From IMG/VR virus record IMGVR_UViG_3300021356_000067, positions 1 to 35,903 of that record: a DNA stretch of 35,903 nt; one strand, given 5' to 3'. The notes under the pieces were generated by a model. That model did not search any database and was not told the origin of the DNA. It saw nothing but the letters and a program-made list of their open reading frames with translations. A program made the translations under genes and the position numbers. The DNA is from a virus. Of the stretch, positions 1-35,724 are shown one piece after another (positions within the stretch are counted from its first letter, which is position 1; each line of letters starts with the position of its first letter).

Positions 1-484
1 CACTTGCAGACGTAGAAGCTGCCAATATCTTACTGCCATTCTCTAACTCCAAAGATCCTTTGTTCCATGCCACAATACCCTGTTGCATCCATTTGGGCAA
101 GTTTTCGTATGCAGTCTGTAATCTTCCAAGAAGTTCTCTTGCGGTTGCTGCTTTGTTTGCAAGAATACCAATGTTAACACTGTCATTAAAGACAGCATAA
201 TGCAAAAGGTAAGATACGACTGTAGTAGATTTACCAGTCTGTCGTGGCATCTTACAGATATTAAATCTGTTTTCGTGGAAATTATTAATTAACTTCTCTT
301 GAAAGTGATATGGATGAAACTGTGTAAGACCCTCATCAAGAGAAACAATCTTGATATAATTGTTGGCAAAATAAACAGGGTCTTCCTTACATTTCATAAA
401 CTCAAGAATTTGTTCTTGAGTAAATTCAATGGCAGTATTTGCTTTTTTTAGATTAGGATTGCCAAGGTATACATTATCAGGCAT
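1..484 (-). CDS. 17: Large terminase subunit gp17 (TerL), N-terminal part; runs off the window
   Basis: This is the first 161 codons of the packaging motor ATPase/nuclease of T4-like phages. gp17 docks on the portal, drives DNA into the prohead by ATP hydrolysis and cuts the concatemer. I read an ATG at 484 that follows the upstream stop codon after six bases. The translation has an adenine-binding/Q-motif-like region with FHPYHFQ at about residues 56-62, and the terminase Walker A variant PRQTGKST at about 80-87 (T4 has a similar RQ-x-GK-T loop). A hydrophobic strand/helix pair (VNIGILANKAATARELL) follows. Walker A lies nearer the N terminus than in T4, so the leader domain is shorter. Walker B, the coupling motif and the nuclease domain lie beyond position 1. 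Family assignment is strong. No clear Shine-Dalgarno is visible, so it is probably co-translated with the preceding gene. Confidence 0.93.
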   Translation of the reverse strand, partial: MPDNVYLGNPNLKKANTAIEFTQEQILEFMKCKEDPVYFANNYIKIVSLDEGLTQFHPYHFQEKLINNFHENRFNICKMPRQTGKSTTVVSYLLHYAVFNDSVNIGILANKAATARELLGRLQTAYENLPKWMQQGIVAWNKGSLELENGSKILAASTSAS

Positions 485-490
485 AAATTA

Positions 491-2638
491 TCAGCAGTTC
501 CAGGCTCTCAGTGATTTATTGATTCTGCTATCGGGATCGTTTGCAGTTTTGGAGGAAGTTAACTTCTTTTTCATTCCTTTCATTCTCGCACAAAAGCTCT
601 TTCTACGAGGGTTCCCAACTTTCTTTGAAGGTCTCTTAAGATCGCTTCCTGGGTTCTCACGTTCATACGACTTCCTACCTTTTTCATTTAAACCTCCCTC
701 TGGATTCTTACCTGACTTTTTTTGCCAGTCTTCCGTATGTAGGAGGGGTTGTCCTGGTTCATAGTCAGAAACTTCATAATTCCTTACTTTTGCGCCAGGA
801 TAGACCTTTTCAATCTGTGCCTGTACTTCATTTCTTCCAGGAACCTTGACGGATGGAAAGAACATTTGAATGACATACATCTTACCTCTGAAGGTAAGAA
901 ATACTCTTACGATTTGTCCAGTCTTTCTAGGAATCTGAACTGCTTCGCTCATTGGTTTTACATAGTTCTTATCTGGACCAATTTTGCCACCATCACCACC
1001 TTTAAATTTTGGTCCATCACACTCTGCGGTTCCATGTACAGGACACTCTGATCCTTCGTGGGTATGATTGCATCCTTTCTTCTCATCAATCTGCTCACCA
1101 TCATGAATGACTTCATCACCTGCTTTTACGCAACGGTTGTAAGTCTTACCAAACAGTTTCTGGGTTCCTGCTTTCTTATATCCCTTCCAGCACTTCTTAC
1201 CTGCTTCACCAAGTAACTTAGAACCAAGACCTTCGGTTGGTTGAAGTGCATCAGGTGTGATGAGATCAGTAAACTCATACTCTGTTGGTTTGTATTCAGA
1301 TCTCCAATTAGAGAATTCTTCCTTCTTGGTCTTATTACCCCAGTTCTTAGCACCTACTTTACGGCACTTGACCAGTGCTCCAGATGCATATGCAGAAGGC
1401 CATACAGAGTAACGAGACTTGACCTTATGGTAGCAAGCATCTTTCTTACCTTCTTCGAGATCGATATCAATCTCGTCACCAACTTCTACATTGTTCTCAG
1501 CAAACCATCCACGATTTACTTCTATTGCACACAGAATTTCTCCATCAGACTCAACTGGAGTTTCAACGTTTGGTTCTAACTGCTTAATGCTTTCGATTAT
1601 ACCATCTGCTCTGATAAAGGCAATGTCGAGGGGAATTCTGGTATCTCTCATATGGAAAGATTGCTGAGCAACTTCCTCAAACACGAAAAGCATTCCACTA
1701 TTCTTATCCAAACTTTCACGGAACATTAATCCAAGATTGAATTCTTTGATATTGGTTGGAATCTCAACATGGAGAGGTAAGGTTGTGAATTCTTCTTTCA
1801 TACCTTTTGCCTTTCTCTCGTTTGCAACACTATGATCTTTACCAGTTCTAAATTTAGAATCTGGACCAAATCCAGATTTAGCAGAACCATACTTATCTTG
1901 CATATGGCGAATCATGCGCTTGGACCTATCAAACTTGTCAAGACCCTGCTTATCATACTTAGGTGCTTTTTCAACAATTGTCTCTTCATTAGTAACATAG
2001 TCTGCTGCAGTGTCTATGTAATCTGCTGCTTTTGTTATTTTGGATTGGACCCAGGCTTTCAGTTCACCCTCTCCCTTTTTGCCCATTTTTTTCTCCAATC
2101 TTTTTGCAGCATTTTTGATAGTTTTCAGTTCAGAACGTGCCATTGAATACTCATAATCTTTTTTATGTTCTTCAGTTGCCACGTTAATTGCCTTCCCTTT
2201 TCTATCTGGATTTGGATCCTTTGCATTCTTACGACGGAATGCTCTCTCCTCTTCATCTTTGGAGAGATTACGCTTCATTTTGCTAGAACCGCACTTTGGT
2301 TTTGTTGTTTGTCCTGGTTGTCTGGCACAGGGTTTGCCTGCATATTTACCACCCAACTGAACCCACCCAGGCTTGCCATCAGAAGACTTACTCTTGCCAA
2401 ACCAGTCACGCAGAGAACTATCACCACTTTTCGACTCACTCATCCCTCCGCCGTTACCATTTCCATTTCCATTGCTATTACCGTTACCATTGAGTGGTTT
2501 ATCAATACCGACTTCCTCTGGTTCTTTTCCACTACCAGAAAATCTTGCAGTCATCCTCATCCCCTTAGAAATGGGTTTGCATACTTTGTCAGTGTAGCAG
2601 TAAAAATATCCTGCTTTACATTTGCCGCTCTTTGACAT
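491..2638 (-). CDS. Mosaic Cys-containing protein with an embedded DUF192 domain
   Basis: A 715-aa protein of unknown function that looks assembled from short modules. In order: an N-terminal Cys motif (CKAGYFYCYTDKVCKP, about 8-23); a Gly/Asn linker (about 50-65); a basic SLRDWFGKS...GKPCARQPGQ segment (about 73-155); a charged helical region (about 160-280); a convincing DUF192 domain (about 286-395, with GLMFRESL, GMLFVF, IPLDIAFI and EVNRGW); CYHKVKSRYSVWPSAYASG (about 400-434); CWKGYKKAGTQKLFGKTY (about 483-510); a Cys/His cluster CNHTHEGSECPVHGTAEC (about 521-539); and a basic tail ending RKSFCARMKGMKKKL...LRAWNC. From memory, several of these basic modules occur as separate small proteins in marine phages. 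DUF192 is mostly known from bacterial envelope proteins. The position between the fibre gene and gp17 suggests a virion or assembly role, but none is shown. A late-promoter-like motif lies 24 nt upstream. Confidence 0.85.
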   Translation of the reverse strand: MSKSGKCKAGYFYCYTDKVCKPISKGMRMTARFSGSGKEPEEVGIDKPLNGNGNSNGNGNGNGGGMSESKSGDSSLRDWFGKSKSSDGKPGWVQLGGKYAGKPCARQPGQTTKPKCGSSKMKRNLSKDEEERAFRRKNAKDPNPDRKGKAINVATEEHKKDYEYSMARSELKTIKNAAKRLEKKMGKKGEGELKAWVQSKITKAADYIDTAADYVTNEETIVEKAPKYDKQGLDKFDRSKRMIRHMQDKYGSAKSGFGPDSKFRTGKDHSVANERKAKGMKEEFTTLPLHVEIPTNIKEFNLGLMFRESLDKNSGMLFVFEEVAQQSFHMRDTRIPLDIAFIRADGIIESIKQLEPNVETPVESDGEILCAIEVNRGWFAENNVEVGDEIDIDLEEGKKDACYHKVKSRYSVWPSAYASGALVKCRKVGAKNWGNKTKKEEFSNWRSEYKPTEYEFTDLITPDALQPTEGLGSKLLGEAGKKCWKGYKKAGTQKLFGKTYNRCVKAGDEVIHDGEQIDEKKGCNHTHEGSECPVHGTAECDGPKFKGGDGGKIGPDKNYVKPMSEAVQIPRKTGQIVRVFLTFRGKMYVIQMFFPSVKVPGRNEVQAQIEKVYPGAKVRNYEVSDYEPGQPLLHTEDWQKKSGKNPEGGLNEKGRKSYERENPGSDLKRPSKKVGNPRRKSFCARMKGMKKKLTSSKTANDPDSRINKSLRAWNC
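2450..2491 (-). repeat. Imperfect hexamer repeat coding for a Gly/Asn linker
   Basis: Runs of ccattt/ccgtta/ccattg hexamers encode alternating Asn and Gly on the minus strand, near residues 50-65 of the DUF192 mosaic protein. This gives a flexible linker between the N-terminal Cys motif and the SLRDWF segment. Such repeats can vary in copy number by slippage. Confidence 0.7.
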
Positions 2639-5097: not shown

Positions 5098-5520
5098 TTA
5101 TTTATTGTCCTCTTTTAATCCATGTTTGAGCATTTTTGCTAGTTCAGCGGTGGATCCAACAAACAATGCATTATTAACTGTTGAGGGTCCTTTAGACTGT
5201 TTTTCTTCCTCTACCTCTTTAAGTTTTTTCTGAAGTTCCATTAATTTGTCAGTTGCATCAGCGACATTTTTAATTAATTGTCCTGCAACTTCATATGCTC
5301 TTGGCATTTCACTTTCTTGAGCGAGTTCAAGAACTCCGTTTAATGCTTCTTGACCTTTTTCGATTATACTATATAGATTCCCTCTAGTATACTCATAATC
5401 CTTTTTTACATCATCTGAGCTAGGTTTTACATTATCCAACTCTTTTTTAACAACTTCAGCCTTTACTATTTCATCCGAAACATTAAAGGTATCGTTTAAT
5501 TCGTCAAAGTTTTTAGTCAT
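5098..5520 (-). CDS. 16: Small terminase subunit gp16
   Basis: A 140-aa helical protein matching T4 gp16 (164 aa), the oligomeric DNA-recognition and regulatory partner of the gp17 packaging motor. The match rests on the KKDYEYTRGNLY segment (T4 has EDDYGVVRRNMHF), the PRAYEVAGQLI helix (T4 has SPRHMEVFATLM), a central pair of helices likely to form the coiled-coil oligomerisation core, and the C-terminal ALFVGSTAELAKML (T4 has VFMGSPTELMDEI). I start it at the ATG at 5520, which overlaps the gp15 stop by one base (TGATG), a translational-coupling arrangement. An in-frame TTG lies one codon earlier. Unlike in T4, the gp17 gene is not the immediate neighbour; two genes intervene. Confidence 0.85.
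   Translation of the reverse strand: MTKNFDELNDTFNVSDEIVKAEVVKKELDNVKPSSDDVKKDYEYTRGNLYSIIEKGQEALNGVLELAQESEMPRAYEVAGQLIKNVADATDKLMELQKKLKEVEEEKQSKGPSTVNNALFVGSTAELAKMLKHGLKEDNK
5099..5105 (-). promoter_or_regulatory. Late-promoter-like ATAAATA
   Basis: Minus-strand ACAATAAATAATAAAA overlapping the TAA stop of gp16 and lying 26 nt before the GTG start of the fibre gene. It has the T4 late-promoter core and the same placement as the other motifs in this window. Confidence 0.6.
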
Positions 5521-6536
5521 CAAATAAATCCACCATCAAATCCAAAGTTGTCACCATCTTCAATCAGAGCACTATCTGCACCAATTGTACCGATGCTTGT
5601 TGTTGAGGTGGTATAATCAATTCCCTTAACTTCTGCACCAGCAACATGTTTTTCTGCTTTTGTATTATCTCTTCCCCTATCAACAGTAATTTTATTGCCA
5701 GTTTTAGATCTAACAAATAATTCTTCGTCACCAATAAAGATATATTTGTCTGCTAAAATACCACTAGCATCCGCAACTTCAAATGTTTTTGCTGTCGCAG
5801 TAATGTCTGCTGCCAATGTAGTAACAACATTATCAGTATAAGACTTGAGTGCTCTTGCAGTAGCAGAGTAAGTGACCTCTCTTCTTGTATTGGTAGTGTC
5901 TGTTCCAGAGAGATAACTGACAGTGGACCTCTTGATGATATCCTTGGATGCAGACTTGGTAGGTCCAAACAGATATGTTTTTGCAGTAAATCTTAGAGTG
6001 TAATATAGAACTCTTCTAGTAGTAAAATCTCCTTCATAATCATCCTGCATTGTGATACTTTCTAGCACAATCGGAACATCTCTTTTTTCTCTAATTTGAT
6101 CAACCAATTCAATAGAAAGATTATATGCTGGTTGAAAATATGGTAAAATTTGCTCTACAATTTGAAGTGCATCATCATTTAATTTAGTGTAAATGCTTAA
6201 CTCAAACTGCATATTATAGGGAACTGGCATGTATGTTTTACGTGACTCAGTTCCATCATCTTTGTCTTTTGCAACAAATGTTTGAGTAGTAGTTACTTTT
6301 CTACTGGGATCGTAAGTAAGTCCAGTGAACTCAAAAGACATTCGTGGCAATGTAATTGCCATGGGTTTATTCAGATCTGGTGACTGCTCAATTCTAGCCA
6401 AAAACTTTTGAGTAGGACCATATGCCAAAGGAATTCTCACAACGGAACCTTCCTGCTGGATCTCCATAGCATTAAATAGAGTTCCAAAACCAATAATGGT
6501 TTTTCTCAGAATCTCGTTGTAAAAATATTCAAACAT
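5520..6536 (-). CDS. 15: Tail sheath stabiliser / tail completion protein gp15
   Basis: A 338-aa homologue of T4 gp15 (272 aa), the hexameric ring that caps the sheath and tube and meets the neck. The N-terminal two thirds is family-typical: FEYFYNEILRKTIIGFGTLF at the start, MPVPYNMQFELSIYTK near 118-133 and a RVLYYTLRFTAKTYLFGP block near 180-197. The C-terminal part differs from T4. Residues about 235-305 form an added module (TFEVADASG...GDEELFVRSKTG...VDRGRDN...AGAEV) that also appears in the 4,070-aa and 2,561-aa baseplate proteins. This accounts for the extra length. The gene sits between gp14 and gp16 as in T4. A CTAAATA motif precedes it, but no strong Shine-Dalgarno is visible. Confidence 0.9.
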   Translation of the reverse strand: MFEYFYNEILRKTIIGFGTLFNAMEIQQEGSVVRIPLAYGPTQKFLARIEQSPDLNKPMAITLPRMSFEFTGLTYDPSRKVTTTQTFVAKDKDDGTESRKTYMPVPYNMQFELSIYTKLNDDALQIVEQILPYFQPAYNLSIELVDQIREKRDVPIVLESITMQDDYEGDFTTRRVLYYTLRFTAKTYLFGPTKSASKDIIKRSTVSYLSGTDTTNTRREVTYSATARALKSYTDNVVTTLAADITATAKTFEVADASGILADKYIFIGDEELFVRSKTGNKITVDRGRDNTKAEKHVAGAEVKGIDYTTSTTSIGTIGADSALIEDGDNFGFDGGFI

Positions 6537-6569: not shown

Positions 6570-6576
6570 TATTTAG
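6570..6576 (-). promoter_or_regulatory. Late-promoter-like CTAAATA
   Basis: Minus-strand CCCTAAATAGTTTT. The TAA inside it is the stop codon of gp14, and the motif lies 34 nt before the gp15 ATG. CTAAATA-type elements are known as late-promoter variants in T4-like cyanophages. Assigned by motif and position. Confidence 0.55.
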
Positions 6577-9134
6577 GGTATTCCAAATGGATTCTGCTCA
6601 CTAAAGTCTAATATAGCATCAGCAGCTGTCTCAATATCAAAATTATCTGCATATGGATCATTATCAACCGTTTTATCTATGGTTCTTAGAACTCTAGTAG
6701 CACCAGAAGTTGATCCAGTTATAGTCTCTCCTAATGAGAACGAACCAGAAACAGCAGCAATTTCAAGTACATTAGTTGTAGAATTCCATGATCTTACTCT
6801 TGCAGTTACTCCGGTTGCAGATCCAGTGATAATTTCATTAAACACAAACTCTCCACTAGAAGTTGAAGATGGATCAGAGATAGTAATATCTGGTGCAAGT
6901 ATGTATTTGTTTCCAGCATCAGTTATGTTAATACTAGTGATTGTTCCTGCCGCACTAATAACCGAAACTCCTGTAGCAGCTTCTACACCAGCAACTTGAT
7001 CAATATAGTTCTTATCACCTACAGTATTAGATATAGAAACTACAGGAGGTGATAAGTATCCTCCACCACCAAATGTAACAGAAATACCTGTAACAATACC
7101 ACAATTATCAATACCGAACTCAAATACTGATGTTGCAATTCCCACATTTGTTGGAGATTGATTTATGAAAATAGTACCTGATCCAATAGATGTGACAAAC
7201 GTATCTGTTGGTATAAAGTTATATGTATCACTATAACCAATACCAAGTCTTACTCTATCTCCAACAATAATATTCGTTGTGCTAATGCCTGTAATATTTG
7301 TGGATCCTATACCAATAGTTCCTTGAGTTTTAACAGAATTAAATCTAATTGTTGCAATACCAAGTGCTCTAAATGCTTCATTCGCTCCTCCTGCACCACT
7401 AATAGTAACAGTCGGAGCAGAGATATATCCAAATCCACTGTTTCCAATACTAATAGAACTTACGGTTCCTGCAGCAGAAACTGTAGCCGTTGCAGTTGCT
7501 GTTGTTGCTGCAGTGGATCCAGAGAAAGAAATTGTAGGTGCAACAGTATATCCTGCTCCAACCGTTGCGGATGTTCCTACCGCCCATGGATCGGACACAT
7601 TGAATGAAACTGCAGTAACAATACCTGTGATAGGATGTATTGTCGCAATACCAACAGCAGTAACTGTTGGGGCATCCATAGTTCCAGATGTAGTAATTGC
7701 AACAGTAGGTGCAGTTCTGTATGCCCTACCTGTAGTGCTAAAAGCGATAGAACCTGGATTTACAGATGATCCAGCAATACCTATGGTTGCAGAAGCAAGA
7801 CTAATTGTTGGTGCTGAGATAGATACCGTTGGAGCACTGCTGTAGAATTTACCAGCAGTTGTTAATCCAATTGTTTTTACTGTTCCTCCAGTCAAACTGA
7901 TAGTATCAAGAGTTGCTGTTGCTAATGCATTGTTTCCAGTTCCTGTTGGCAAGGAGAATGTAACTGTTGGTGCTTTACTATAGAATACACCACCAGTTGT
8001 TCCTCCTGGGAACAGATATGAAGATGCACCAATACTAATAGGAGCAGAAGTTACACTTACACCTCCACCAACCATTGGAGAATCTAAAATCGCTGTTGCA
8101 GCTGCTCCGACATGCTTTGGATTTGAGAAAGTCACTGTTGGTGCTGCAACGAATCCTCCTCCAGAATTGGTCAAGGTTACTATACCAACACCACCAATTT
8201 GACTAAGAATTGCAGTTGCAGCTGCACCAGTGCCTGTTCCATCAGTGGTTCTAAAAGTTATTGAAGGTGCAACAGTGTATCCAGAACCTGCATTAACAAC
8301 ATTGACTGATTGAACAGACTGTAGTCTTGGATTTGCATTAAGATTGCAAACATTAATACCACCAATCATTGTTGCAATACCAACAGCAGTTACTCCTCCT
8401 GAGGGTGCTGAAGAAATTCCAACGGTAGGAATCATTCCATATCCACCACCTCTATTGGTAATAGTGAACCTTCTTACTCCACCAATTACAACTCCAGAAA
8501 TTGCAGATGCACTAACTGCGTCCCCAACCATGGTAAGTGTTTGAGTGACTCCCTGAATGGTACTAATACCATCATCAGTAACCCCATCAGATTCATCACC
8601 TAGCAATTCATTATCAATGTCTTCGATTCCTGTTGCAATGACTTCATCTTGATACTGGAAGAGTTCGCAATACAGTTCATAAACATAAAGACTTTGTAAT
8701 TGATAGTATGGTTTTGCATATTCAATATCTTTAATTTCATAAAGACGGTCATCTAAGGGAAACCAGATCAAATCTCCACCCTTAGGACGAGTAGAAAGTT
8801 TTATATTTGATTTTCCTTGAATTAATGGAGTAATATAGTTTTCATATCTTTCTCTAGATATAATCAATCTTACTTCATCTTTCGACTCAATGCCAAACTT
8901 TGATAGTACATCTCCTGCTCCAGAATATGCATCATAATTATCGACATATGCTTCTATAGGCAGAGCTTCATCAAATTTAGACTGAACAACTTCCCTAATA
9001 ACAGTCTTTTCTGACATATATTTTCTTGGGATGTAATATATGTCGACACCATACATCCTTAACTGTTCGTTGATCAGATCCTGAACAAGATTTTGTTCAG
9101 AAGAAGTACCTTGAGTAAAAAACGGATTTAACAT
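6573..9134 (-). CDS. 14: Neck protein gp14, with a large inserted beta-repeat region
   Basis: The N-terminal 180 or so residues (MLNPFFTQGTSSEQNLVQDL; a VDIYYIPRKY segment; WFPLDDRLYEIKDIEYAKPY) and the last 30 (DPYADNFDIETAADAILDF, ending NPFGIP) are gp14-type, the neck component that joins head and tail with gp13. T4 gp14 is 256 aa but this protein is 853 aa. The extra length, about residues 185-820, is a Gly/Thr/Ile-rich array of GSGYTVAPSITF-type units with VGIAT/GIGST words, followed by a GE-x-ITG-x-TSGA module (about 757-818). The array has no equivalent in T4 gp14 and shares units with the giant baseplate protein, gp8 and the DUF4815 protein. The ATG overlaps the gp13 stop by one base. 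I infer that the insertion projects from the collar as a decoration. Confidence 0.88.
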   Translation of the reverse strand: MLNPFFTQGTSSEQNLVQDLINEQLRMYGVDIYYIPRKYMSEKTVIREVVQSKFDEALPIEAYVDNYDAYSGAGDVLSKFGIESKDEVRLIISRERYENYITPLIQGKSNIKLSTRPKGGDLIWFPLDDRLYEIKDIEYAKPYYQLQSLYVYELYCELFQYQDEVIATGIEDIDNELLGDESDGVTDDGISTIQGVTQTLTMVGDAVSASAISGVVIGGVRRFTITNRGGGYGMIPTVGISSAPSGGVTAVGIATMIGGINVCNLNANPRLQSVQSVNVVNAGSGYTVAPSITFRTTDGTGTGAAATAILSQIGGVGIVTLTNSGGGFVAAPTVTFSNPKHVGAAATAILDSPMVGGGVSVTSAPISIGASSYLFPGGTTGGVFYSKAPTVTFSLPTGTGNNALATATLDTISLTGGTVKTIGLTTAGKFYSSAPTVSISAPTISLASATIGIAGSSVNPGSIAFSTTGRAYRTAPTVAITTSGTMDAPTVTAVGIATIHPITGIVTAVSFNVSDPWAVGTSATVGAGYTVAPTISFSGSTAATTATATATVSAAGTVSSISIGNSGFGYISAPTVTISGAGGANEAFRALGIATIRFNSVKTQGTIGIGSTNITGISTTNIIVGDRVRLGIGYSDTYNFIPTDTFVTSIGSGTIFINQSPTNVGIATSVFEFGIDNCGIVTGISVTFGGGGYLSPPVVSISNTVGDKNYIDQVAGVEAATGVSVISAAGTITSINITDAGNKYILAPDITISDPSSTSSGEFVFNEIITGSATGVTARVRSWNSTTNVLEIAAVSGSFSLGETITGSTSGATRVLRTIDKTVDNDPYADNFDIETAADAILDFSEQNPFGIP
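7645..7665 (-). repeat. Direct repeat copy A within gp14
   Basis: The plus-strand string gcaataccaacagcagtaac here recurs with one mismatch at 8374-8394. Both encode T-A-V-G-I-A-T within the repeat region of gp14. Conservation at DNA level, beyond the peptide, suggests recent duplication or recombination. Confidence 0.7.
8374..8394 (-). repeat. Direct repeat copy B within gp14
   Basis: Partner of the copy at 7645-7665, differing at one base (gcagttac against gcagtaac). It lies about 730 bases away, within the same gp14 repeat array. Confidence 0.7.
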
Positions 9135-9979
9135 CAGCCTATCATATCAAGCGGTGGCAGTTCATAGGTATTCGACATTACCTCTCTGATCTTATCTAGT
9201 TCTTTCTCTGCATCATCATATATCTGCCTTCCGTTAAGTTCGATTCCACCTGGAAGTTTAACTCCCTGGAACTTAATTAGGTTCTGTCCCCACTGTCTCT
9301 TGATAAGTGCTGTCAAATAACGCTTTAGGAAACTGTCGTTATAAACTCTTGGGAAATCATTAGGATTAAGTAATCTATAGCAATCAATAACCAAGTAATC
9401 ATCTACACTGACGCTGGCCCAATCAATATCTAAGTAAAGTCTATCTTGTCTTATATTAAATCTAATCTGCTTCTGTGTTGTTAATGCAAAGTCGATATCC
9501 TCAAGATATCTCTTTGTCATTGCATAGGTTAGAATTTCTGTTGAACCAAAGTAATAAATATCATTCAAGAACAATTGATACTTAATACTAAACATGTTGT
9601 TGGTGGTTGTGTTAGAACCATCAAAGTGATATATCTTCGTTACACCTAAAACTTCTGGAGGAACTTGCAAGTAGTTGCTATTCTCCTCAAATGAAAATGA
9701 TACAGACTGTCCGTCAATCGTAGAACTTGCAGTTGTAGTTACGATACCAATAGGGTTGCTTCCGCCTCTACCTCTTCCCCTATCAATATCTGCCTGAGTA
9801 ATCTTATACTTCAGAAACGTGTTAGTTGTCCCGTCATAGTCGCGTTCCTGGAACAACTGGAGGGCATCATCAACCAAGTCATCAATCTGCTCATCAGCAA
9901 CGTTAATCTCCAATACAGGAGCACCTAGCTGCCTCTTACAGTACGCAATTAATTCTGATCTACTTGCTGGTTGAGCCAT
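9134..9979 (-). CDS. 13: Neck protein gp13
   Basis: A 281-aa homologue of T4 gp13 (309 aa), the head-completion/neck protein that attaches to the portal after packaging. Characteristic parts are the N-terminal SRSELIAYCKRQLGAPVLEI helix, the acidic DEQIDDLVDDALQLFQERDY helix, a central VPPEVLGVTKIY strand and the C-terminal KRQWGQNLIKFQGVKLPGGI region with NGRQIYDDAEKELDKIREVM. It heads a two-gene unit with gp14, with a TGATG overlap between them. A CTAAATA motif and an AGGAAACTGGTGA purine-rich stretch precede the ATG. It shows none of the repeat expansion seen in gp14. Confidence 0.92.
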   Translation of the reverse strand: MAQPASRSELIAYCKRQLGAPVLEINVADEQIDDLVDDALQLFQERDYDGTTNTFLKYKITQADIDRGRGRGGSNPIGIVTTTASSTIDGQSVSFSFEENSNYLQVPPEVLGVTKIYHFDGSNTTTNNMFSIKYQLFLNDIYYFGSTEILTYAMTKRYLEDIDFALTTQKQIRFNIRQDRLYLDIDWASVSVDDYLVIDCYRLLNPNDFPRVYNDSFLKRYLTALIKRQWGQNLIKFQGVKLPGGIELNGRQIYDDAEKELDKIREVMSNTYELPPLDMIG

Positions 9980-20066: not shown

Positions 20067-23000
20067 TCATCCGAATTTTTTGAACCTAATATATCTGGTT
20101 CTATAAACTTTCGATGAAGTAGATATACCAGTAAATTCATTTGTTCCTATTCCGGATAAGGTGCGTGCTGGATACGAAAGTTCTTTAGTTCTAGCATTTA
20201 CGATAACTTTACCCCAAGAGTATTCTCCAAGGAATGATCCTGTTGAGAATCCAGAAACTCCATTTGGATTTATATTGGTATTCACAGTAACTTTAGCAAC
20301 ACTGGTTGTAACTCCAGCGATTACTTGAGTTGCTATTCCAACAGAATTTACGACATACGCATTATCGAGATATTCGGATCCAATTCCAACAATTGTGGTA
20401 TTATTGGTTCCAAGAGCAGTAATGCTAGTTGATGCTGTTCCCAAGTTAGAATTTCTTATTATGAAATGATCTCCAATAGACAATCCGCTTATGGTTACAG
20501 CGGTTCCAACCAAATCAGTATCCCTCATTACAGAGTCTAGAGGAATGTGAAGATGGAACATTAACCCTGTTGAACCAACACCAATAGAAGTGGTTCCCAG
20601 TCCAACGATTATTCCAGAATCTCCAGAATAAGAGGAGACATCACAAGACTCTGTTTGTTGTGCAGGAGGTCCGATAAGGACTAATGGTGGATTAGTATAA
20701 GTATATCCAGCACCAGGATTAGTAATAGTAATTCCAGTGACAACCCCATTAGAAATTGTTGCTGTTGCAGTCGCTGTTGTGGATCCTATACCAACACTTA
20801 CATCAGGAGTTGTTGAATATCCAACACCACCATCATTAATCGTGATTGAAGTAATAGTTCCAGCGGATGAAACTACAGCTGTTGCTGCTGCTCCAGTAAC
20901 AACTACTGGATTTACTAACTTTATTCCTTTTTGAATGGTGTTTCTGAATGTAGGATCTATGTTTTCATTATTAAGATCAAATAATGGTCTCAATCTATCA
21001 ACATAGACTATAGTAGAACCAATACCAACAGAACTAATAATATTTGCAGTTGGATTGATAACAGGTTCATAAATTTCTCTGTCTTTACCAACTTCTTGAC
21101 CGTTGATGATCTTATCTTGAGTTTGTCTACACCATGTTATTGGTCTCTCAAAAGTAGTATCAGTAACATTGCCTGGTCCAAAATATGGAAGAGTATTGCA
21201 CTTATCAACATTTGTGATTGAACTAATTGTTCTAGTATCTTCTTGCTGATATGGTTTTTGGCCCAGATCTGGATTATAATTTAAAGTAACCTCATCTCCA
21301 TATTTAAGAGTTTCAATAACTTCCCTATCAATAACATCCAAATCATCTCCGCTTCCTTTATAGAAAACGATATTAAGAGTGTCACCAATCCTTAACGGTT
21401 CTGAGAAAGTTATTTGAGAACCACCATCAAACTGATAAGATTCTCCTGGACGCTGAAGTATTTCATTTACAAATACTAAAAGTAATTGGTCAAGTTCAAT
21501 CTTTGATCCTTTTGATTTGTTAATAGATATTGAAACACCAGCTTTGATTAATGGGAAATCAACTCTAGTACCGTCAATAAATTCGGAAACATCATCAAAT
21601 GTATCAAGAACACCTAAAGACCATCCAGTAAATTCGTCACTAATGACTTTTTCTATCTCAACTTCAAATTGGTTTGAGGATGAGAACGATGAAGTGGTAG
21701 GAATTCCAGTTGTTCCTCCAATAGCAACCGTTAATTGCTCACTATTACCATAACCATATCCCGTATTAGTAATTTCAAAATCAATTACACTAGATCCTTG
21801 TCCAACAACAACACTAACTTTAGCTTCTGTTCCAAATCCCGTTGTTCCAGAAACATACTCTAATGATAAATTGCTATATGAAAGTGGAGAATCAATTACA
21901 ACGAAAGGTGGATCGGAATGAGTATATCCAGTTCCAGGATTGGTAATAGTAACAGCGGTAATATGACCATCAGCAATAGATGCAGTTCCAATAGCGACTA
22001 GATTTGGGGTAGAGAGACTTGTAGTACCAACACTAACATTAACAGTTGTTTGAATTCCAGATCTATATCCAGATCCAGAGTTCCCGATAGAAACTGAAGA
22101 AATTGTTCCTAATCCAGAAACAATTGCTGTTCCTCCTGCAGCAACTAAAGGTTGATATCCAAGACCCTCCTGAGATCCAACGGAAACAATTATTCCTCCT
22201 TTCGGGAAAGTAGAAACACCAACGTCATTTGTTAATGTTCTGGATGCACCAGTAAAAGTAATAGAGGTGATTCCAGTATTTTCAGAGAGAGTAAAGTTAT
22301 TTGCTCCTCCAGTAACTTGATATATGTCATTAATTAATACAATTGCACCTTCATCACTAATTCCAGTAACATTGCTACCATCAGACTTTAAAGTGAACTG
22401 ACTTTCAGTTCCATTAAATTGATCTGAAATATCATCAAAAATGTAGTTTTTATAATATGTTTCATTAGCAGTATCTGGCTGAGCCGTCCTCATGAAACTT
22501 CTTCCTTGGAAACTAGAACCAGTTGTTATACCAGTAAAGTCTCTCTGGTCGGGAGGATTTGTAATAGTTCCAATTGGAGTATTTCCATATGGTGCTTCAA
22601 CAAAATTCAAAGTATTGCCAACAATGTTATAGTTTCCAACGACTTTTGTTACTAAATCGCCAGTTGAAAGTCCGGTCTGAATGGTTGTTCCCATCCACCC
22701 TCTACGAACTGAAACTCTGTTTGTGGATCCAATACCAACACCTTCAATTTTCATTATTTCATCACCAACTTTAAATAGATCTCCTCCAAAGAATGAAGTT
22801 ATTCCAGTAAAGTCAATAAGATTATCTGTACTTACTACATTATCGCCCAAGGTTGTTGTAACTGCAGTAGAGACAACTGGAGATTGAATGAGATTGTCAA
22901 TGGCAACTAATACTTTTGGATTTTGATTTGTTGCGGTGAATGTATGAGTCTGATCAACACCAAGGGAACCAAATGAAGTTAAATCAACAATCTTTGGAAC

Positions 23001-26000
23001 AGATTTCAAAGCATCTTCTGCACTTCTGGCAAGTTTGATGCTATTATCATTAACTTTAACTACAAATACTCCGGTTGCTGGAAGTAATGTTGTAGTTACT
23101 CCAGCAACTGGGAATGTAGTTTCTCCAATGCCAAGTGATCCTGTATTTCCAACACCTGGACCAGTGTATGCAATCTGCTCTCCAGTAACATAGAAGTGAT
23201 TTGGAATTGTAATGGTGTCTGAAACAGTATTAATACCAGTTCCAGTAAATGATCTTTCAAAAATGTTATCGTTCTTATGAGTCAAATTAAATGATCTCTT
23301 AATGTCCCTCTCAGTTCCAGTGTAATCACCATATCCAGTTTCTATGGTTGCATTATTAAAACTGATTTCATCCTTCGTATCATCTTCAATTCTAAGAGCA
23401 TTAGTATATACATGAACAGTTGCATCAATTCCTGCTACAGGAGTAAAGAGAACTTGAGTGGTTGCAGCAAGGCCAACGGAGTTAGCAACTACTCTAGATC
23501 CAAAAGTTCCAAGACCAGAATGAGTTTGAATATTTGCAAACTCAGTATCAAAAGTTTCTCCAGTTGATTCTCCTTCAATATGATCATCTACAACAAAATA
23601 TTCTAAGAATTCATAACGATTATTTGTAGTATCATGAACTTGAATCATGAAATATCCAGCATCATATCTATCTTCTTCAGTAGAAATATGACTTGGATAT
23701 TCTGCAACAACATTTTCAGTTGGAGACCCAGATGATGCAATATCGGTCATTGTAGATTGCAGTCTGGCATGTTTTAGATCAACTGTAGAAATACCGGAAG
23801 TTATGGATGATAATCCAACAACAATAGTATTAACTACTGCATTTGTCCCTATTCCAGATGGATGGAAATCAAGTTTGATATTTGAACCATCTAGACGTGC
23901 AGTATAAGTTCCAAATCCAGTTGCACTCATTCCTCCAAGAGAAGTAGTCAATTTACCATATTCCAGAATAGATACATTTGTTCCATCATGAACAATATTC
24001 AATTCCTGTGCTTCAAATTCATTTGAATTGAAAGTAGCAGTGTTTCCAAAAGATGGATTACTAACATCTGGAGCAATTTCAACAAGAACTTTCAGGGAGT
24101 GATATGTATTACCAATACTGACAATGTTAGCAGTGGTTCCAGAACTTACAATTACACTTTCTGAGTCAATTAAGACTCCTCCAATAGAAGTATCTCCCGT
24201 AGTAAGATAATTGTCGTTTAAATTATAAGAGATTGTTGTAATATCGTAATCATTTACTGATGATTTAGTTGGGAAGAATAACAACTGTCCTTCAGATCCA
24301 GATATTGAGAAATCGAAAGATCCTTGATCATATACAGTTTCTACTCTTGCATATTGATTAAGATATCCAAAAGATCCATCATGAATAAGATCAACTATCA
24401 AAGCCTGTCTTTCTTGAGTAAATCTCTTATCTCTGAGATAAGTAAAATACTTTCTAAACCTAAAATCTTCTAGATTGAAATTGTTAAGTACACTAAAAGC
24501 AGTTGCTCTGGGATTGCTATTAAACTCTGAAGAAATATCGTCAATAGAAAGAACTCTATTTCCAAATGACTCTGTAAAATCGGTTAGAATTCTATTATTA
24601 AGAGTGATTTCATCGGAAAGAATTGTACCATCTGTAAGAGTTAAACTGTTCTCTGTGGCAATATCAAAATCAAATACACAATTTGTATCAATAAATCCAT
24701 CTAAACTACTTACAATAGTTACATCAGTTAATTCTGTAGAAATCCCAACTTGCATCGGTTGATCCAAATTGGTTGATTCAATTTGAAGATCACTAAACTT
24801 TTTATACCCAAGAGTATGATTTACAGAAGATACAACATCATTCCAATCATCGAATGGAATAGTGCTCTTTAATGAGTATGAGAAATTTTGATAATAGAAA
24901 CTATCTTGTAATCTCTGTAAATTATCATTTAAGAATCCTGAAACATTTTGATTACCACTGAATATTTGAGAAGAAACATCAGTTTCAAAATAAGACTCAT
25001 ATGAAGTTACTTTTGAAGCAACTCCAGAAAGTTCTGAAGTAAGTCCTTTTACAATATCTCCTGATACAAAACTATCAGATGAAAGAACTCTAAGAATCTT
25101 TGTTGTTCTATCCCAACTTTGAACAACACCTTCTTTTCCATTTGTAGTAACTTTCTCTCCACTAAGATAATCAGATGTAGATACTAGTGTATCAAAGGTT
25201 GGGAAATTCTTTTCTGCCGATACTACTCCAGAAGAATTAATAGAATCAAATGTACCAGGATTTTCTCCATCATTCAATTCATCACCCAAATTATAAGTGA
25301 TTGATCCAAGTCCTCCGAGATTTGTGGTAATTCCAGTGAGAGTGAACAGTTTATAATCATAATCTTTAGAATTATATCCACGAGCTGTTGAACCAATTCC
25401 AATACTTGTATTTTCAACTATTACCCTATCACCAACTTCAAATGGGAAAGATGTACTAAATCCAACTGACAGATTTAAAGTCACCTCTTTAGTAACAGTG
25501 TTAAATCCAACAGTACTAATTCCAACTCCATTAGTATTCTTTACTGGCAATACTGTTGGAGTAGCGTTATTAATTCCTCTAGTATTACTTAAAATAGTTA
25601 CGGTTGAATCTCCCAGAGAATACTTAGTTGAGAGATCAGTAATTTGATCTCCAGTCTTACCATCAAAGAAGATTAATTCTGGTGCTGAAGAATATCCTCT
25701 TCCTCCAGAAATTATATCAATTCTTTCAACTTTAGCGAAGGCATCTATAGTAAGAATTTGTGGGAGAGATGTACTTGGTTTCAGTGTTTTATCCGTTGGG
25801 AAATCATAACCAACGTCTTCAATTTTTACTTTTTCAATGATTCCAATATCTTCAGTAGTAGCTACTAAATCTCCTCTTTCTCCTTCAATAGTATTAATAG
25901 ATAAAATGGAAGGTAATGTACTATAATTCTTTCCAGAACTGGTAACTTCTACCTCAGATATTGGGCCATTTGTATGAGTACAATCAGTTGTATAAGATAT

Positions 26001-29000
26001 ATCAGATAAAGTAGATGTGTATGAATCTGCTTCTGGAGTTTCTGGTAGTTCAAATGTAAAGAAGTTAGTTCCTGCGATAGAAACTCTTCTGCTTCCGTTA
26101 TAAACACTATTTTGAGTTATTATAGAATTGTTGTTTAAAATTTCAGAATCTTTTATTATTTCCGATTTTTGTTCGGGGAGATTCGTGTCAGAAACTGGGT
26201 CAAATGAATAGTAAAGTCTTTCTGGGGTAGTTTGTCCAATAGAAACTCTTACATTAGCAGTACCAATTCCAGAGAACCCTGTTCTAGAAACACTAAACGT
26301 TGATGATGATTGATCAGTTTCCCAACGATTTGTATATTTGTCATCCAGATAGAAATTAAGTCGGAATGCAGAATATTGAGTAGATTGTTGAGTGAATCCT
26401 AAAGAAGAGTCTGAAATATCAAAATCTAATGTTGAACTTCTGTAAGCTTTAATAGGAGGATTAATTAACCCAAACTCACCAAATGATGTGCTTGCAATTC
26501 CAACAACATTTGGTATCAAATTAGTTGAATCATAATAAGTATTGGATAATTTAATATTATCATCATCAACTTTTACGACATAGTAAATCCCATCATTTTG
26601 AAGTCCTTGACATGGTGCAGTTGATGAATGAATTACTTTATCTCCACTTTCATAACCATGATTGGATATACTAATAGTATTAGAAGTGCTGTTAACACCC
26701 ACAGCACTAAAAGTTTTTATACCAACTAATACTCGTCTATGGGTATCATTATATTTTACAACATATGTTGTTGCAAATGATGGATTAACATCGATATTGA
26801 CAAAGTGTTCTCCACGAATACCATGATTTGAATCTGTTGTTACAGTTACAACTCTCTTTACAATATCACCAGTTATATTACTATAGTTTGTTGCAAAACT
26901 ATGATTTGTTCCACTACCAATTCCTGTAAAGAATAAGGTTGTAGTTGTATTTCCTACTCCAACAAATCCACCAGTAGAACCAAGTCCAACTCTTTGAGTT
27001 GCAATACCAATCAAATCATTTGAAATTTTAGCAACAAAAAGGTCCTGTCCATCAGATAGAGTTTTAGCTATGCCAACACTGCCAACTTCATTATAGACAA
27101 TACCTTGTCCACCGTTTGGAGAATATGTTAGTACATCACCTGTTTCCAGTCTATGATTTTTTATATAAAGCGATTTAATGGGAACTCCAAGAGTACTAGA
27201 TCCGAAAGTTGTTCCAAGACCAACGGTATTTAATCCAAAAGAACTAAATTGTAATACAGATCCAATTCCAACAGCAGTAGTGCCAAGACCTACTGTTTCT
27301 GTTGGGCTAAAATATATTTCTCGATTTCTCTTAAAATCATACTTTGTTTTAAATCCAGATTTAAATGTAAATCTTCTTGGGTCTTCAGATAAAATAGATC
27401 CAACAGTATGAGATACTCCAACAGTACCATCTACTTCTCGAAGAACTTTAAATCTAGAATTATCTCTATCTACATTTAAAACTTTTACTCTCTCAGTACC
27501 AATACCCAAAATATCATTTGGTACAATATTTGATGCAATCAAACTTGATGATACATTGAAGAAAGTTACTACTCCAGTGATACTAGTGTTTCCAACAGCA
27601 ACTCCAGTAGTACCCAATCCAACAAGCGAGAATCTCTCACTTGAAACTCCTATCGAATATGATCCTTCGATTTTTGATGATGTTGTGGAAACACCAGTAA
27701 TATTAACAATATCTAATGATTGGTAATTATGTGGTGACGCTGATTCTATAATATACGTTCCTTTTTTACTTGAAGGAATTAATTCGACATTGGATAATTT
27801 ATTTGTAGCGGCACTAATACTATTAACAGTTCTTCCTTTTAATCTAGAGATTCTTCCAGCTGCTCCAAATCCAGTTGTATCGTCAGAAAAGTTTAGAGTA
27901 TCTCCAACTTTATAATTGTCACCAGAACTTTTTACTTCTACTTTAGAAACTCTTCCTCTATTTGTAGCTACAATTTTTCCTGTTTGAGATAAATTATTTG
28001 GAGAATATATGTAAGGATAATCAACATTATCTTCTCTCAAATTATATGAGATTGTATTTCTACACCAATTATTTGATTCAATATCATAATCATCTTGGTT
28101 GGAAGATGTCTTGAAGTTAAACTCATTTGGAGTAGAATAATATGAATTTCCTAAAACATATGGAAATTGAGGAAGTTTATAATTTTCAAATAATCCAGAA
28201 GATTCTATACTATCGGGATTAACTGTAACAAAATAAGCATATGTTCCATTTGGATATTCTGGTGTTATACAATATCTTCCATTATTTCTATCGAGATAAG
28301 AATCATCATTATTTTCATAATAAGTAAAATCTTCTACGAAAAATCCTAATGGGAAAGATGATACTGGTGGACCATCTACACGGGATGAATTAAGTTTATA
28401 ACTAGACTTCATTAATGTAACTAATCCACCATTAGCATTAGAATAACCATATGGTCCATAAATTGGGTTTCCATCGTAAGCCCAACCAATAATTGGAGAG
28501 TGATCAGTAAATTCTGTTTCTTGAGAGTTGACTAATTTTAGATCTGGTTTTCCATACAAAGTGTCTCCACCTTCAGAAACAGAATAAATCATTTCCCTCA
28601 ATGATCTTGGTGCGTACAATGAGAAGCACTGCAAACCATACTTACCACTCAGTGATCCCTGTAAGACAGTATCATCATTTTGAATGGCATCATTAGTGTA
28701 TAATTTTTCAAATAAATTTACTCTCCATTTTTGAATCTGGGGGATAAAAGAAAAATCACTTTCTGCAGTAGATACCTCAATAACTACGTCTCCAGAAACG
28801 TATCCTTGTCCTTGTTCTATAACCTTAACTTCACGAAGATGTCCATTTATAATAATTGGGGTTAAAACGCATCCAAGTCCAGAACTAGATATTATTTCTA
28901 AATCTGGAATAGATGTATAATTAGATCCAATGTTTTCTATAATAACTTCTATGATTCTTCCGTCAGAGGAAACAACAGGTTTAACCTGAGCGTTCTCACC

Positions 29001-32000
29001 AGATACTACAGATACATTGGGTAATTTGTTGAAATTAATAATATTATTGGTTCCATATCCAGATCCATAATCGGATAAATGCACCGAAGTAAGTTCCCCT
29101 CTAAAAATAGGTTGAACTTCAGCTTTGTATGCACTTGATTCAATTCCTGTAACTGTTGCTATTCCAACAGGGCCCTCTACAGTAACAGTTATTGGGGGGT
29201 AATTAAAAATTTGAGTCCCTGTGCCAGCACTAGTTAAATTAACGTACTGTTTTGTTCTATAGAAGAAAGTACTATCAGTAGATCTAATCTCAGATAATCT
29301 AAATTTATTGTTATCGACCACTGTAACATAGTAATCAGTGCCATCGTTTAATCCACCAATGGCACTTGTTCCAGCAGAATATCTTAATGTCTCTCCAGAT
29401 TTATAATCATGATTTTCTATAGTAATAATATCAGATGAAGTATTGATGCCAGTAGAAACAACACTTCTCTTTTTATTTTCATAACCAGTTCCATTATCAA
29501 CAATGTTTATTGAATCAATGACAAGTTTTTGTGATGCACACTCTAGGGTATGTTTTCCAATACCGTGAGAAGATAAAACAACTGTGTTAATACCAGTAAT
29601 CGCTTGTTCTAAAGTATCGTGTAACTTAATGGTAGTTGCATCAACAACTTGTGCAAAATATGTAGAATTAGTAGATAATCCACCAACTACTCTTTGAGCA
29701 TTTGGTTTATATACTAACTGTTCACCATTTCTAAATTTGTGATAAGTTGAAAATCCAATAGTAGAAATAGTAGCACCTGTAGAAACTTTAGCAGAATTTG
29801 AATCTGAGAAAAATTCTACAGAATGAGAAATTAATTTTGTATTTACTAATGCTCTAGCATCTCTTCCATTCCCGCCTGTTATTGAAACAATAGGAGTATC
29901 TGTAAAGTCAAATCCTCTATCAATAATCTGCAATTCTCTCAGACTTCCACTAACGGCAAGAAATCCTGTTGCACCAGAACCAACAGCATCTTCTACTTTT
30001 AATACAGGAGGATTAATTATATCAAAACCATTTCCTGGAGAAGTTACTTCAATTTTTTCTACTTTTCCAGTATGAATTAAATCTTTTGATTTATAGTTTA
30101 AAATTTCAACACCGTTAATTAAAATTCCAGTAGCTCCTGGAGAAGTTTCAACCTTGGCATTACTGTCAATTGGATTGCTAATTTCTCTATAAAGTCTTTG
30201 CGAATCTATAACTTTACCTTTTGTCTCTACCAGTTCTATGATATTATCTGTAACGGTAGTTGATGATGGTACAGATGCAAAATTTGATGTGTATAAATTA
30301 GCTGGAGATTTGGCTAGTTTTATATTATTATTATCAACTCTAAAAACATAGTAAACTCCTTCGCCACCATCGTCTCCACCAAACAATGAAGACTTAATAG
30401 AAGTTTGAATGAAATCTTCTCCATCAACAGTAAAAGTTGTTTCGGTTTTTTGTGGTGTATAATATACAGATTCCCCTCCATAAAATCCATGGTCATTTAT
30501 GGTTATAGTTTCTCCAAGAAATGTGCCACCAAATGTTTTTGCAGTTTTTGATGCAATGAACGGTACATCTTTATATGAAGGTAATGAGTTTGACGCAACT
30601 AAAATTGAATCTCCATATTGTTTTTTATAAACGTTTTGAACATTCGCGTGAAATTTAGAAAGATGGGGGAAAATTGAAGAAGTCACTTTCCTCAGTTTTC
30701 TTGATAAAGAATAACTTGATACAGTATTAATAGTTCCAGAAGTTCTAATTGTTACAACTTTATCAGTAATAATATCAAGAACTTCTGCATCAAAAGATTC
30801 ATTCCCAACTGTAGCATCAATGGTTACAGAGTCTCCAAGAAATAAGTAATTTTCTTTGTTTAAAGTTATTTTATAAGTTTTTGGTGAAACATTACTAATT
30901 AATTCAATTTTGTTAATTAAATATTTGACTGGATTATTATACAACCAGTTTTTAAACTTAAATGTATCATCTTCGACACCAAGAGTTTTTATATTAAATT
31001 GGTCTCCTGGTTTATAATCAAATATACCATCTTGTTTTGAAAATCCAGATAAAACAGATGTAAGACGAACTTCGATAGGGTCTTCATCATCAGATGGTTT
31101 AACTGAAACAAAATCTTCCGTACTTAAAGTATCTCCGTCAATCAAAGTATCTGTAACATTGCTGCATCCTAAGAATTGTGTTATTGTCTTGGATGTATAA
31201 GAAACAATACCAACTGTATCTGTAATTGCATTTGGATATTTTACGTAGATTTCTCCAGAATTAGGAAATCCGATTGTTGAATCTACATCAATAAAAGTAG
31301 ATCCAGCGGAAACATTTCCAATTATATGAGTTTTTGGTGCAACTTTAAAAGTACCAATAGTTGATCCTAAAGATCTGGAATCTCTGTTATATCCATCATC
31401 GTAAGAGAGTTTATAAAAAGTTTTTGCGGTCCCTGCATTTACTTTTTCAATACCATATATTGAAGTATATGTTTCATCATTATCACCTTGAAATATAGTT
31501 CTACTTTCTAATTCGGAGGGATTCCCGTTAATTGATTCTGCCAAAAAAGTAGAAGTTACTAAATTCCTAGCATTTGAAGGTGTGAACAGATAATCTCTTG
31601 GTTTCGTTATTTCAACATTTACGCCATAGAGAGCCTTAAATAAAATTTTATAAGACTCATCTGTTCCTTTACTAGTGTAAAAGTCTTTTGCCTGCTTTAT
31701 AAAAACATTTTGATTCAAATTTGAATCAAGAGGTCTATCAGATAATCCTGGTAAAATTTGAAGTTTAGTTTTATTTAAAAATTCTTTTAAGAAAAGACAA
31801 CTTAAATTTTCAATAGTTGCACCGTCTTCATGTTCAGCAGCAGAGGTTGAATTAAAGACAAGATCCCCTGGATTAGCGTCTGCTTTATATGAAGTTACTC
31901 CAACAAATCCTCTAATACATCCAGTGAAAGAAGATGATGTTTTTCCAGTGTAAGTTATTACTTCATCACCTATCTTCAGAAGACCATATGAATCTGGAAA

Positions 32001-35007: not shown

Positions 35008-35014
35008 TATTTAT
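35008..35014 (-). promoter_or_regulatory. Late-promoter-like ATAAATA
   Basis: Minus-strand CTCAATAAATACC. Its TAA is the stop codon of the 237-aa gene, and it lies 17 nt before the 53-aa gene's ATG. It has the T4 late-promoter core. Confidence 0.6.
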
Positions 35015-35724
35015 TGAGGGTCTAAAGGTCGCCCATCTTGTGATTTGTACATATCTTCTGGTTTTTCTTCTTCTTTTTCGCGTTCTTTTGCTGTTTTCCA
35101 GAAATATTCGTCCTCTCTACCCATCCCAAGACGATCATAACCGTTTTCAACACTATAATATTGAGTTGAAACCTTAAAATCAGGCATTTTGGGGTCAACA
35201 GGTGTCAAACTATTATCAAAAATACGCATTCTGTTGTTTGGATACAGTGCATACTGTCCATTTTCCAGTTCAATCAGGTTATGTGACTTATGCTCAGCTG
35301 GATTTTCACTTGTTGCATAGTCAATCGTATCAGGATCTTGATGATAATTGTCTATTGTACAAATATATGTACCTCTTTGAATACCAAAATCTCTTGTATA
35401 GAGTTCATAATCCATAGAACCAATGAATTGCTTGGTTACAGACACTACACCATAGTCCATACAGTTCCAAAACTGTAAATTGGGTAGATCCATATCAGGA
35501 CTTGGTGTCTCTGGATCGCTTACAAATGCACTAATCGGCAATTTATCATACATTGCCGCATATTCTGGTAAATATGTCTCAAAATAAAAAGCGCGTCCAG
35601 GTATCGACTTACACGATACCCAAACGCCCTTAACAAATTCACCATGACCAAATTGATGGTCAGTGAGATATTCTTTTCTTACCCATACTTCAACTGAAGG
35701 AAGGTTACAAATAAGTGCTGCCAT
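35011..35724 (-). CDS. Conserved phage protein of unknown function, 237 aa
   Basis: A 237-aa soluble protein that I associate with a conserved hypothetical of T4-like cyanophages, without a named function. It is rich in aromatic and acidic residues: N-terminal SVEVWVRKEYLTDHQFGHGE, then VWVSCKSIPGRAFYFETYLP, NLQFWNCMDYGVVSVTKQFI and ENGQYALYPNNRMRIFDNSL. The C-terminal 30 residues are highly charged (KTAKEREKEEEKPEDMYKSQ) and probably flexible. No signal peptide, membrane segment or catalytic motif is evident. It lies between a tiny basic protein and the gp25 unit. A GTAAATA motif lies 23 nt upstream, but no close Shine-Dalgarno is visible. A virion-associated or assembly role is possible from context only. 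Confidence 0.85.
   Translation of the reverse strand: MAALICNLPSVEVWVRKEYLTDHQFGHGEFVKGVWVSCKSIPGRAFYFETYLPEYAAMYDKLPISAFVSDPETPSPDMDLPNLQFWNCMDYGVVSVTKQFIGSMDYELYTRDFGIQRGTYICTIDNYHQDPDTIDYATSENPAEHKSHNLIELENGQYALYPNNRMRIFDNSLTPVDPKMPDFKVSTQYYSVENGYDRLGMGREDEYFWKTAKEREKEEEKPEDMYKSQDGRPLDPQ

Follow-up and report, generated by a model that had tools for sequence, protein, structure and literature searches.

The rings of the phage neck are regarded as conserved machine parts, and host-contact variation is usually sought in the tail fibres. Why, then, should a gene for one of these rings in a marine virus encode a protein more than three times as long as its T4 counterpart, as an earlier note proposed for gp14 in the window analysed here (that is, the whole 35.9-kb stretch of the uncultivated virus record IMGVR_UViG_3300021356_000067)? 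The open reading frame in question (6573-9134, minus strand) starts with ATG, encodes 853 amino acids and sits inside an operon-like run of T4-type virion genes in the order gp25, gp6, a 4070-aa protein at the place of gp7, gp8, a 2561-aa DUF4815 protein (VrlC-like in relatives), gp13, gp14, gp15 and the small terminase. The gene order gp13–gp14–gp15 was found directly, with phrog_211 (Ad2) upstream and T4-gp15_tss downstream of gp14, and the closest named relative by gp14 core is Synechococcus phage Bellamy (Kyanoviridae), at 84% over 181 residues. The features on which the argument below draws, and the basis of each, are as follows.

9134-9979, minus strand: the gp13 neighbour (phrog_211, head-tail adaptor Ad2)
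8640-9134, minus strand: gp14 core, residues 1-165, head closure Hc2 fold (PF11649, identity with T4, fold match)
8550-8639, minus strand: acidic linker, residues 166-195 (sequence; low model confidence)
8520-8549, minus strand: candidate first strand of a split beta-barrel, residues 196-205 (structure-match rows; weak)
8076-8486, minus strand: repeats 1-3, residues 217-353 (repeat profile; in short and long alleles)
6969-8102, minus strand: long-allele cassette, approximately residues 345-722 (alignment, breaks in DNA identity)
7107-7340, minus strand: non-repeat domain within the cassette, residues 599-676 (fold match, class survey)
6816-6953, minus strand: repeat 10, residues 728-773 (corresponds to the final short-allele repeat)
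6672-6842, minus strand: putative barrel segment with the motif GExITGxTSGA, residues 765-821 (query of residues 761-822)
6573-6671, minus strand: C-terminal tail, residues 822-853, with the stop codon (kept in cyanophages)
5520-6536, minus strand: the gp15 neighbour (PF16724, 282 bits)

Elsewhere in the window, the 4070-aa protein at the gp7 place (20067-32279, minus strand) has a YHYH domain (87.3 bits, residues 1258-1357), and a 715-aa protein near the terminase genes (491-2638, minus strand) combines DUF192 and DUF6321. A 237-aa protein (35011-35724, minus strand) matches phrog_3704, which is labelled ferredoxin (E 4e-115); Pfam gives it no ferredoxin domain, and the label may be wrong.

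The 853-aa protein is a true gp14 (head closure Hc2). Residues 2-167 match the Pfam family T4_neck-protein (PF11649) at 94.5 bits against a cutoff of 25, the PHROGs match is to phrog_460 (head closure Hc2, E 2e-134), and 56 of 167 residues are identical with T4 gp14 (34%, E 8e-29), which was also the sole significant relative in a sequence search of the PDB (E 8e-22). Five T4 gp14 chains, and nothing else, were matched by Foldseek against the PDB at E <0.001, and the best fold match of the core in the predicted model is T4 gp14 9lu4_M (Z 9.4, rmsd 3.4, 97 residues). The two proteins (T4 gp14, PDB 9mkb and 9lu4) are alike in the core (residues 1-165), in their place between gp13 and gp15 and in ending with a C-terminal tail; they differ in what follows the core, which in T4 is approximately 75 residues without repeats and in the window approximately 690.

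The last block of the protein is, as judged from its sequence, surely the cyanophage gp14 tail. Residues 806-853 score 72.7 bits against a profile of cyanophage gp14 tails, among whose rows the window may itself be included, and the same profile detects the tails of Syn33, S-CAM22 and ACG-2014e, three sequences not in the profile, at 40-51 bits; the terminal 32 residues are conserved in the cyanophages examined. T4-like tails reach at most 8 bits with this profile, and hhalign of the cyanophage tail with the T4-type C-terminal arm gave an E value of 0.0035 but a probability of 9%. We nevertheless consider homology of the cyanophage tail with that of T4 probable, because its place makes descent from the T4 tail likely. 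The statement in the earlier note that both ends of the gene are gp14-like thus stands for the N-terminal block on Pfam, PHROGs, T4 identity and fold, so that the objection it had named against itself (that is, end blocks without homology to gp14) fails there, and for the C-terminal block it stands among cyanophages, with a weak link to T4. The length it gave for T4 gp14, 256 aa, is right, and a more than threefold enlargement is accurate when measured against T4 (853/256), whereas the commonest cyanophage class (approximately 480 aa) is exceeded 1.8-fold.

Between these ends, approximately 650 residues separate the core from the 32-residue tail, and the approximately 640 residues of repeat sequence first reported there are right to within approximately 20. 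Ten repeats of approximately 44 residues each, with the signature GxGYxxxPTVxI, span residues 217-773, and the 599-676 domain falls between repeats 8 and 9. Repeats 4-9 together with this domain constitute the long-allele cassette, which is missing from short alleles and whose edges appear in close pairs as breaks in DNA identity near residues 300-340 and 760. A profile of the repeat unit detected 10 units in the window's gp14, one weak unit in its gp7 (E 0.00016) and, when the 13 window proteins searched were each shuffled 20 times, none in the shuffled sequences; no donor of the repeats was found within the window, where the single weak unit in gp7 was the only other occurrence. DNA tandem repeats are absent from gp14 (one unrelated array lies elsewhere in the window), so that recent slippage is not visible.

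The segment with the motif GExITGxTSGA, queried as residues 761-822, is present in 247 of 248 non-T4-like gp14s and in 0 of 17 T4-like ones. In the AlphaFold2 model of the window's gp14 (mean pLDDT 68.2, pTM 0.44), several repeats are good (block means 80-90) within a model that is poor as a whole, and a pLDDT of 68 with a pTM of 0.44 means that the packing of the repeats is not given by the model. Structure-match rows (VIA-align) that span 195..821 with approximately 69 aligned residues at a Z of approximately 6 weakly suggest that the repeats interrupt a small second beta-barrel composed of the strand at 196-205 and the segment at 765-821; the individual folds proposed for such a barrel (eIF2-gamma domain 3 and the baseplate of phage JBD30) were not retained, as a Z of approximately 6 is in the range that the tool calls common. 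The non-repeat domain may resemble surface domains of other phage virion proteins: residues 599-674 of the model fit 8eci_1 of Arthrobacter phage Bridgette (Z 7.6, rmsd 1.8, 65 residues) and the domain fits 9n71_A and 8vjh_B (Z 7.4 and 6.6), with tail tube and tail tip domains among the matches, at scores that below Z 8 may reflect only a common arrangement and that unrelated rows (for example, ubiquitin-activating enzyme) approach with a Z of 6.0. A sequence search of the PDB with residues 599-676 gave nothing convincing. As to where the insertion lies, the loop proposed for it is correct insofar as the insertion stands between a folded core and a kept tail, but the site is the junction of the core and the C-terminal arm and not simply a loop of the core.

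Is this enlargement peculiar to one phage? It is not: all eight Kyanoviridae records examined (Bellamy, S-SM2, S-SSM7, S-CAM9, Syn33, P-SSM2, ACG-2014e and S-CAM22) have a gp14 of 374-762 aa, longer by far than the 256 aa of T4, and the comparison with other marine T4-like phages that the earlier note had called for reveals an insertion of varying length. The insertion is the rule in the T4-like cyanophages examined, that is, a lineage-wide trait. Collection of 357 records gave 355 with a gp14 open reading frame, of which 313 were complete (incomplete frames were dropped) and 265 distinct. These comprise T4-like (17, including one frame of 155 aa), mini (2), short (466-487 aa, approximately 480; 138), mid (3), 643-686 aa (5), 760-767 aa (61) and long (829-858 aa, approximately 850; 39) proteins, in numbers that are not natural frequencies, given that loci were picked by similarity to five queries and to one cassette query that selects long forms. 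One of the proteins (L271, 374 aa) ends unlike other gp14s and may be broken.

The window carries a long allele. The classes are discrete in content as well as in length: 10 repeats are present in 38 of 39 long proteins, four in 137 of 138 short ones and none in any of the 17 T4-like ones, and the 599-676 domain occurs in all 39 long proteins and in 0 of the 226 others. Bellamy (Bellamyvirus), with a gp14 of 483 aa, shares with the window the core (84% over residues 1-181), the same four repeats, the barrel segment and the tail, and is without the six further repeats and the 599-676 domain. In the 760-767 aa class a lectin-like segment fills part of the insertion; Synechococcus phage S-SSM7 and its uncultivated relatives have a gp14 of approximately 762 aa with the same insertion place and the same kind of repeat, but with a lectin-like (Laminin_G_3) segment in place of the 599-676 domain, and the relative L113 matches Laminin_G_3 (PF13385) with E 6e-6 and 26.9 bits, just below the Pfam cutoff of 27.6. 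A model of an S-SSM7-type gp14, built from 10 alignment rows, had a mean pLDDT of 30, was meaningless and was discarded. Two further gp14 alleles, a third and a fourth, have different inserts and measure 579 aa (L045:6001-7737) and 565 aa (L209:1773-3467). Outside cyanophages, enlarged proteins of the neck or head closure are among the structure matches (BFVD), for example in Tenacibaculum phage PTm1, where the listed model has 619 aa, and in Myoviridae sp. ctBDS4, with 590 aa, and enlargement of the neck may have arisen there too.

The cassette itself was found at 23 loci in IMG/VR, 22 with at least part of the gp14 core and one (L352) with the gp14 tail only. Among 50,697 named phage records it had no match, where the whole protein finds 2334 (the low-complexity filter being a caveat to this comparison), so that the long allele is known here from uncultivated viruses only. 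As all 39 long forms come from such records and none from named phages, and as assemblers can be misled by repeats, the long and short forms might be thought to be chimeras of repeat-rich genes in metagenome assemblies. We find this scarcely credible: the 39 long proteins are distinct, lie on separate contigs and are all open and in frame, their cassettes have been diverging (52-95% identical between more distant members) under purifying selection, and sequenced isolates (for example, S-CAM9 and S-SSM7) have gp14s of 640-762 aa with insertions.

Long and short alleles do not follow separate lineages of the core. When the label 'long' is mapped on a tree built from residues 1-190 (187 rows), it has to change 16 times, and branches with strong support force at least 7 of these changes; the mean for shuffled labels is 35.8, so that the label is clustered yet has switched many times. 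In close pairs, only the centre of gp14 is replaced. For L247 (long allele) and L227 (short allele), identity is 98.4% upstream of gp14 and 99.3% downstream of it, and within the gene it is 96.5% for the first 570 nt and 97.9% for the last 96 nt. The same long contig compared with L229 shows approximately 95% identity outside a gp14 centre that is replaced or absent. Mid alleles compared with short-allele relatives gave 97-100% over most of the region outside the insert (L209 and L204) and 92-100% outside the insert (L045 and L049). Across all 47 long–short pairs whose first 570 nt are at least 90% identical, median identities are 91-93% upstream, in the core and downstream, and 76-79% in the stretches beside the cassette, for which 79 long–long and 130 short–short pairs give 85-91%. 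The alternation on the tree, together with near-identical contigs that differ only in the gp14 centre, points to exchange of long and short alleles by recombination.

Comparison among long alleles bears on the same question. There are 220 long–long pairs with cores less than 64% identical; in all 220 the cassette exceeds the flanking repeats in likeness, and in 180 it exceeds the core as well, whereas in pairs with cores at least 90% identical it is less alike than the core in 203 of 211. L345 and the window, for example, share 62% in the core, 45% in the flanking repeats, 47% in the barrel, 76% in the cassette and 84% in its inner domain. Regional differences in selection could cause part of this likeness, and synonymous divergence, which is less open to that effect, falls in cassette residues 356-598 below its value in the core when L010 (0.20 versus 0.36) or L040 (0.61 versus 1.97) is compared, but not with L008 (0.53 versus 0.45). 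L346 is nested at starred values of 96 and 99 in the cassette tree and falls outside a clade of starred value 100 in the flank tree; given that a cassette tree with the 29 core relatives in a single clade was not rejected by an AU test (p 0.089), this incongruence between cassette and flank sequences is suggestive only.

Selection on the arm is real but loose: dN/dS for cassette residues 356-598 is 0.10-0.38 in six pairs, and for the core 0.007-0.024 in five pairs, the sixth being saturated. Such values could invite a neutral account in which slippage makes the repeats expand and contract, with the arm merely tolerated, given that the segment consists of repeats, that its dN/dS is at least 10 times that of the core in five of six pairs and that lengths vary widely between lineages. 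We judge this account improbable, as dN/dS remains below 0.4, the repeat number is almost always 4 or 10 with no spread between them, the long form always has the same non-repeat domain, the length of 829-858 aa is kept over cores down to 50% identity, and the repeats have diverged too far in DNA to register as tandem repeats.

What surrounds the arm in the particle can be approached through T4, in which, according to passages of PMC12270204, gp14 forms a hexamer beneath the gp13 dodecamer, gp14 residues 178-256 remain disordered until the tail joins and in the virion rest on gp15, and the fibritin whiskers attach to domain III of gp13 (residues 190-239). The cyanophage insertion starts where this mobile arm of T4 gp14 starts. 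The gp13 of the window is approximately 40 aa shorter than that of T4 in a stretch that includes the fibritin-binding domain: the 100 residues at T4 140-239 align with 60 in the window, seven cyanophages are shortened there as well, and the 50 T4 residues of domain III (190-239) align with 29 in the window and these seven, so that the window lacks the full T4-type fibritin-binding domain. A search of 8 related cyanophage genomes for fibritin detected it in none, with a positive T4 control; the window itself is a fragment of 35.9 kb. An extra domain of approximately 60 residues near the C terminus of gp15 is shared by the window, Bellamy, S-SM2, S-SSM7 and S-CAM9 (4 of the 7 cyanophages aligned) and absent from T4, Syn33, P-SSM2 and ACG-2014e. 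The gp13 of S-CAM9 (L005:4871-5992, 373 aa) has an insertion of approximately 90 residues that is missing from the other aligned gp13s, and all three neck proteins can therefore carry inserts.

These neighbours also bear on the main rival to an exposed arm, namely that the arm serves as structural cement, packed against the neck, a capsid vertex or the sheath, and stabilizes the joint without meeting any outside surface. The arm is located at a pressurized joint, the extra domain of gp15 (in the window and 4 of 7 cyanophages) and the S-CAM9 gp13 insertion make for a bulkier neck overall, and the 599-676 domain resembles part of a capsid-associated Bridgette protein. A fitted part, however, should not be swappable for a segment of double the length with gp13 and gp15 remaining 91-99% identical, and we hold cement to be an unlikely, if serious, reading.

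We therefore lean, at somewhat better than even confidence, towards an exposed and exchangeable arm on the gp14 neck ring. The core of gp14 would form a hexameric head-closure ring beneath gp13 (the hexamer and its copy number in this phage being taken by analogy from T4), the tail would dock on gp15, and a long arm of approximately 44-residue beta repeats with one extra surface-type domain would stand between the two. With six gp14 copies and an insertion at the start of the mobile arm, six repeat arms would be expected at the head–tail joint. Such an arm would be modular, with short (4 repeats), long (10 repeats and the extra domain) and rarer versions that could be swapped by homologous recombination through conserved flanks; the Laminin_G_3-like domain that takes the same place in L113 counts in its favour. 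From its position and composition we infer an appendage that most likely meets the medium or a surface (that is, other particles, the cell or the phage's own fibres), and we propose this contact as the reason why the length and tip of the arm vary and the ring does not. The absence of fibritin and the shortened docking stretch of gp13 are compatible with such a role.

A whisker-like function is considerably less probable than the exposed arm itself. Like the fibritin (wac) whiskers of T4 and the neck fibres that Anabaena phage A-1(L) bears, the arm would protrude from the neck, but those are separate trimeric fibre proteins on the upper neck ring, whereas the proposed appendage is part of the closure protein. 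In passages of PMC10966104 the neck fibres of cyanophage A-1(L) have a sugar-binding tip that failed to bind the host, which counts against a receptor role for the arm. Another parallel may be found in mosaic tail fibres and shuffled phage proteins, for which passages of PMC10684548 describe recent exchange of fragments inside one gene and list a neck passage protein among the examples; the difference is that the part swapped here belongs to a genome-gate ring protein, not to a known receptor binder. In the literature searched, which lies outside subscription journals, we found in the portions available no paper on length alleles of cyanophage gp14; the searched passages of Sullivan 2010 (PMC3037559) contain none of the terms neck, gp13, wac and whisker, and those of PMC6224464 neither neck nor gp14. 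Passages of PMC7029224 locate a hypervariable island of pelagimyophages between VrlC and gp14, and passages of PMC5112629 report a McDonald–Kreitman signal on gp14 in a wild cyanophage lineage, in a survey whose authors place such signals no higher than the false-positive rate.

A bolder extension, which we consider doubtful, would be that T4-like cyanophages grow neck appendages from the genome-gate protein, as six single-chain arms with interchangeable tips that are swapped as a second system of adhesion or sensing beside the tail fibres. The tips would then be a decoration-like domain, a lectin-like domain and others, in phages that appear to be without fibritin and part of its docking domain.

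In summary, a genome-gate ring protein bears a bulky segment that appears to be traded in the form of discrete alleles between phages whose ring and neighbouring proteins are almost the same; it is the swapping of long and short alleles within an otherwise conserved neck that deserves attention. If the arm is indeed exposed, the neck would be a neglected place where ocean phages may adapt.
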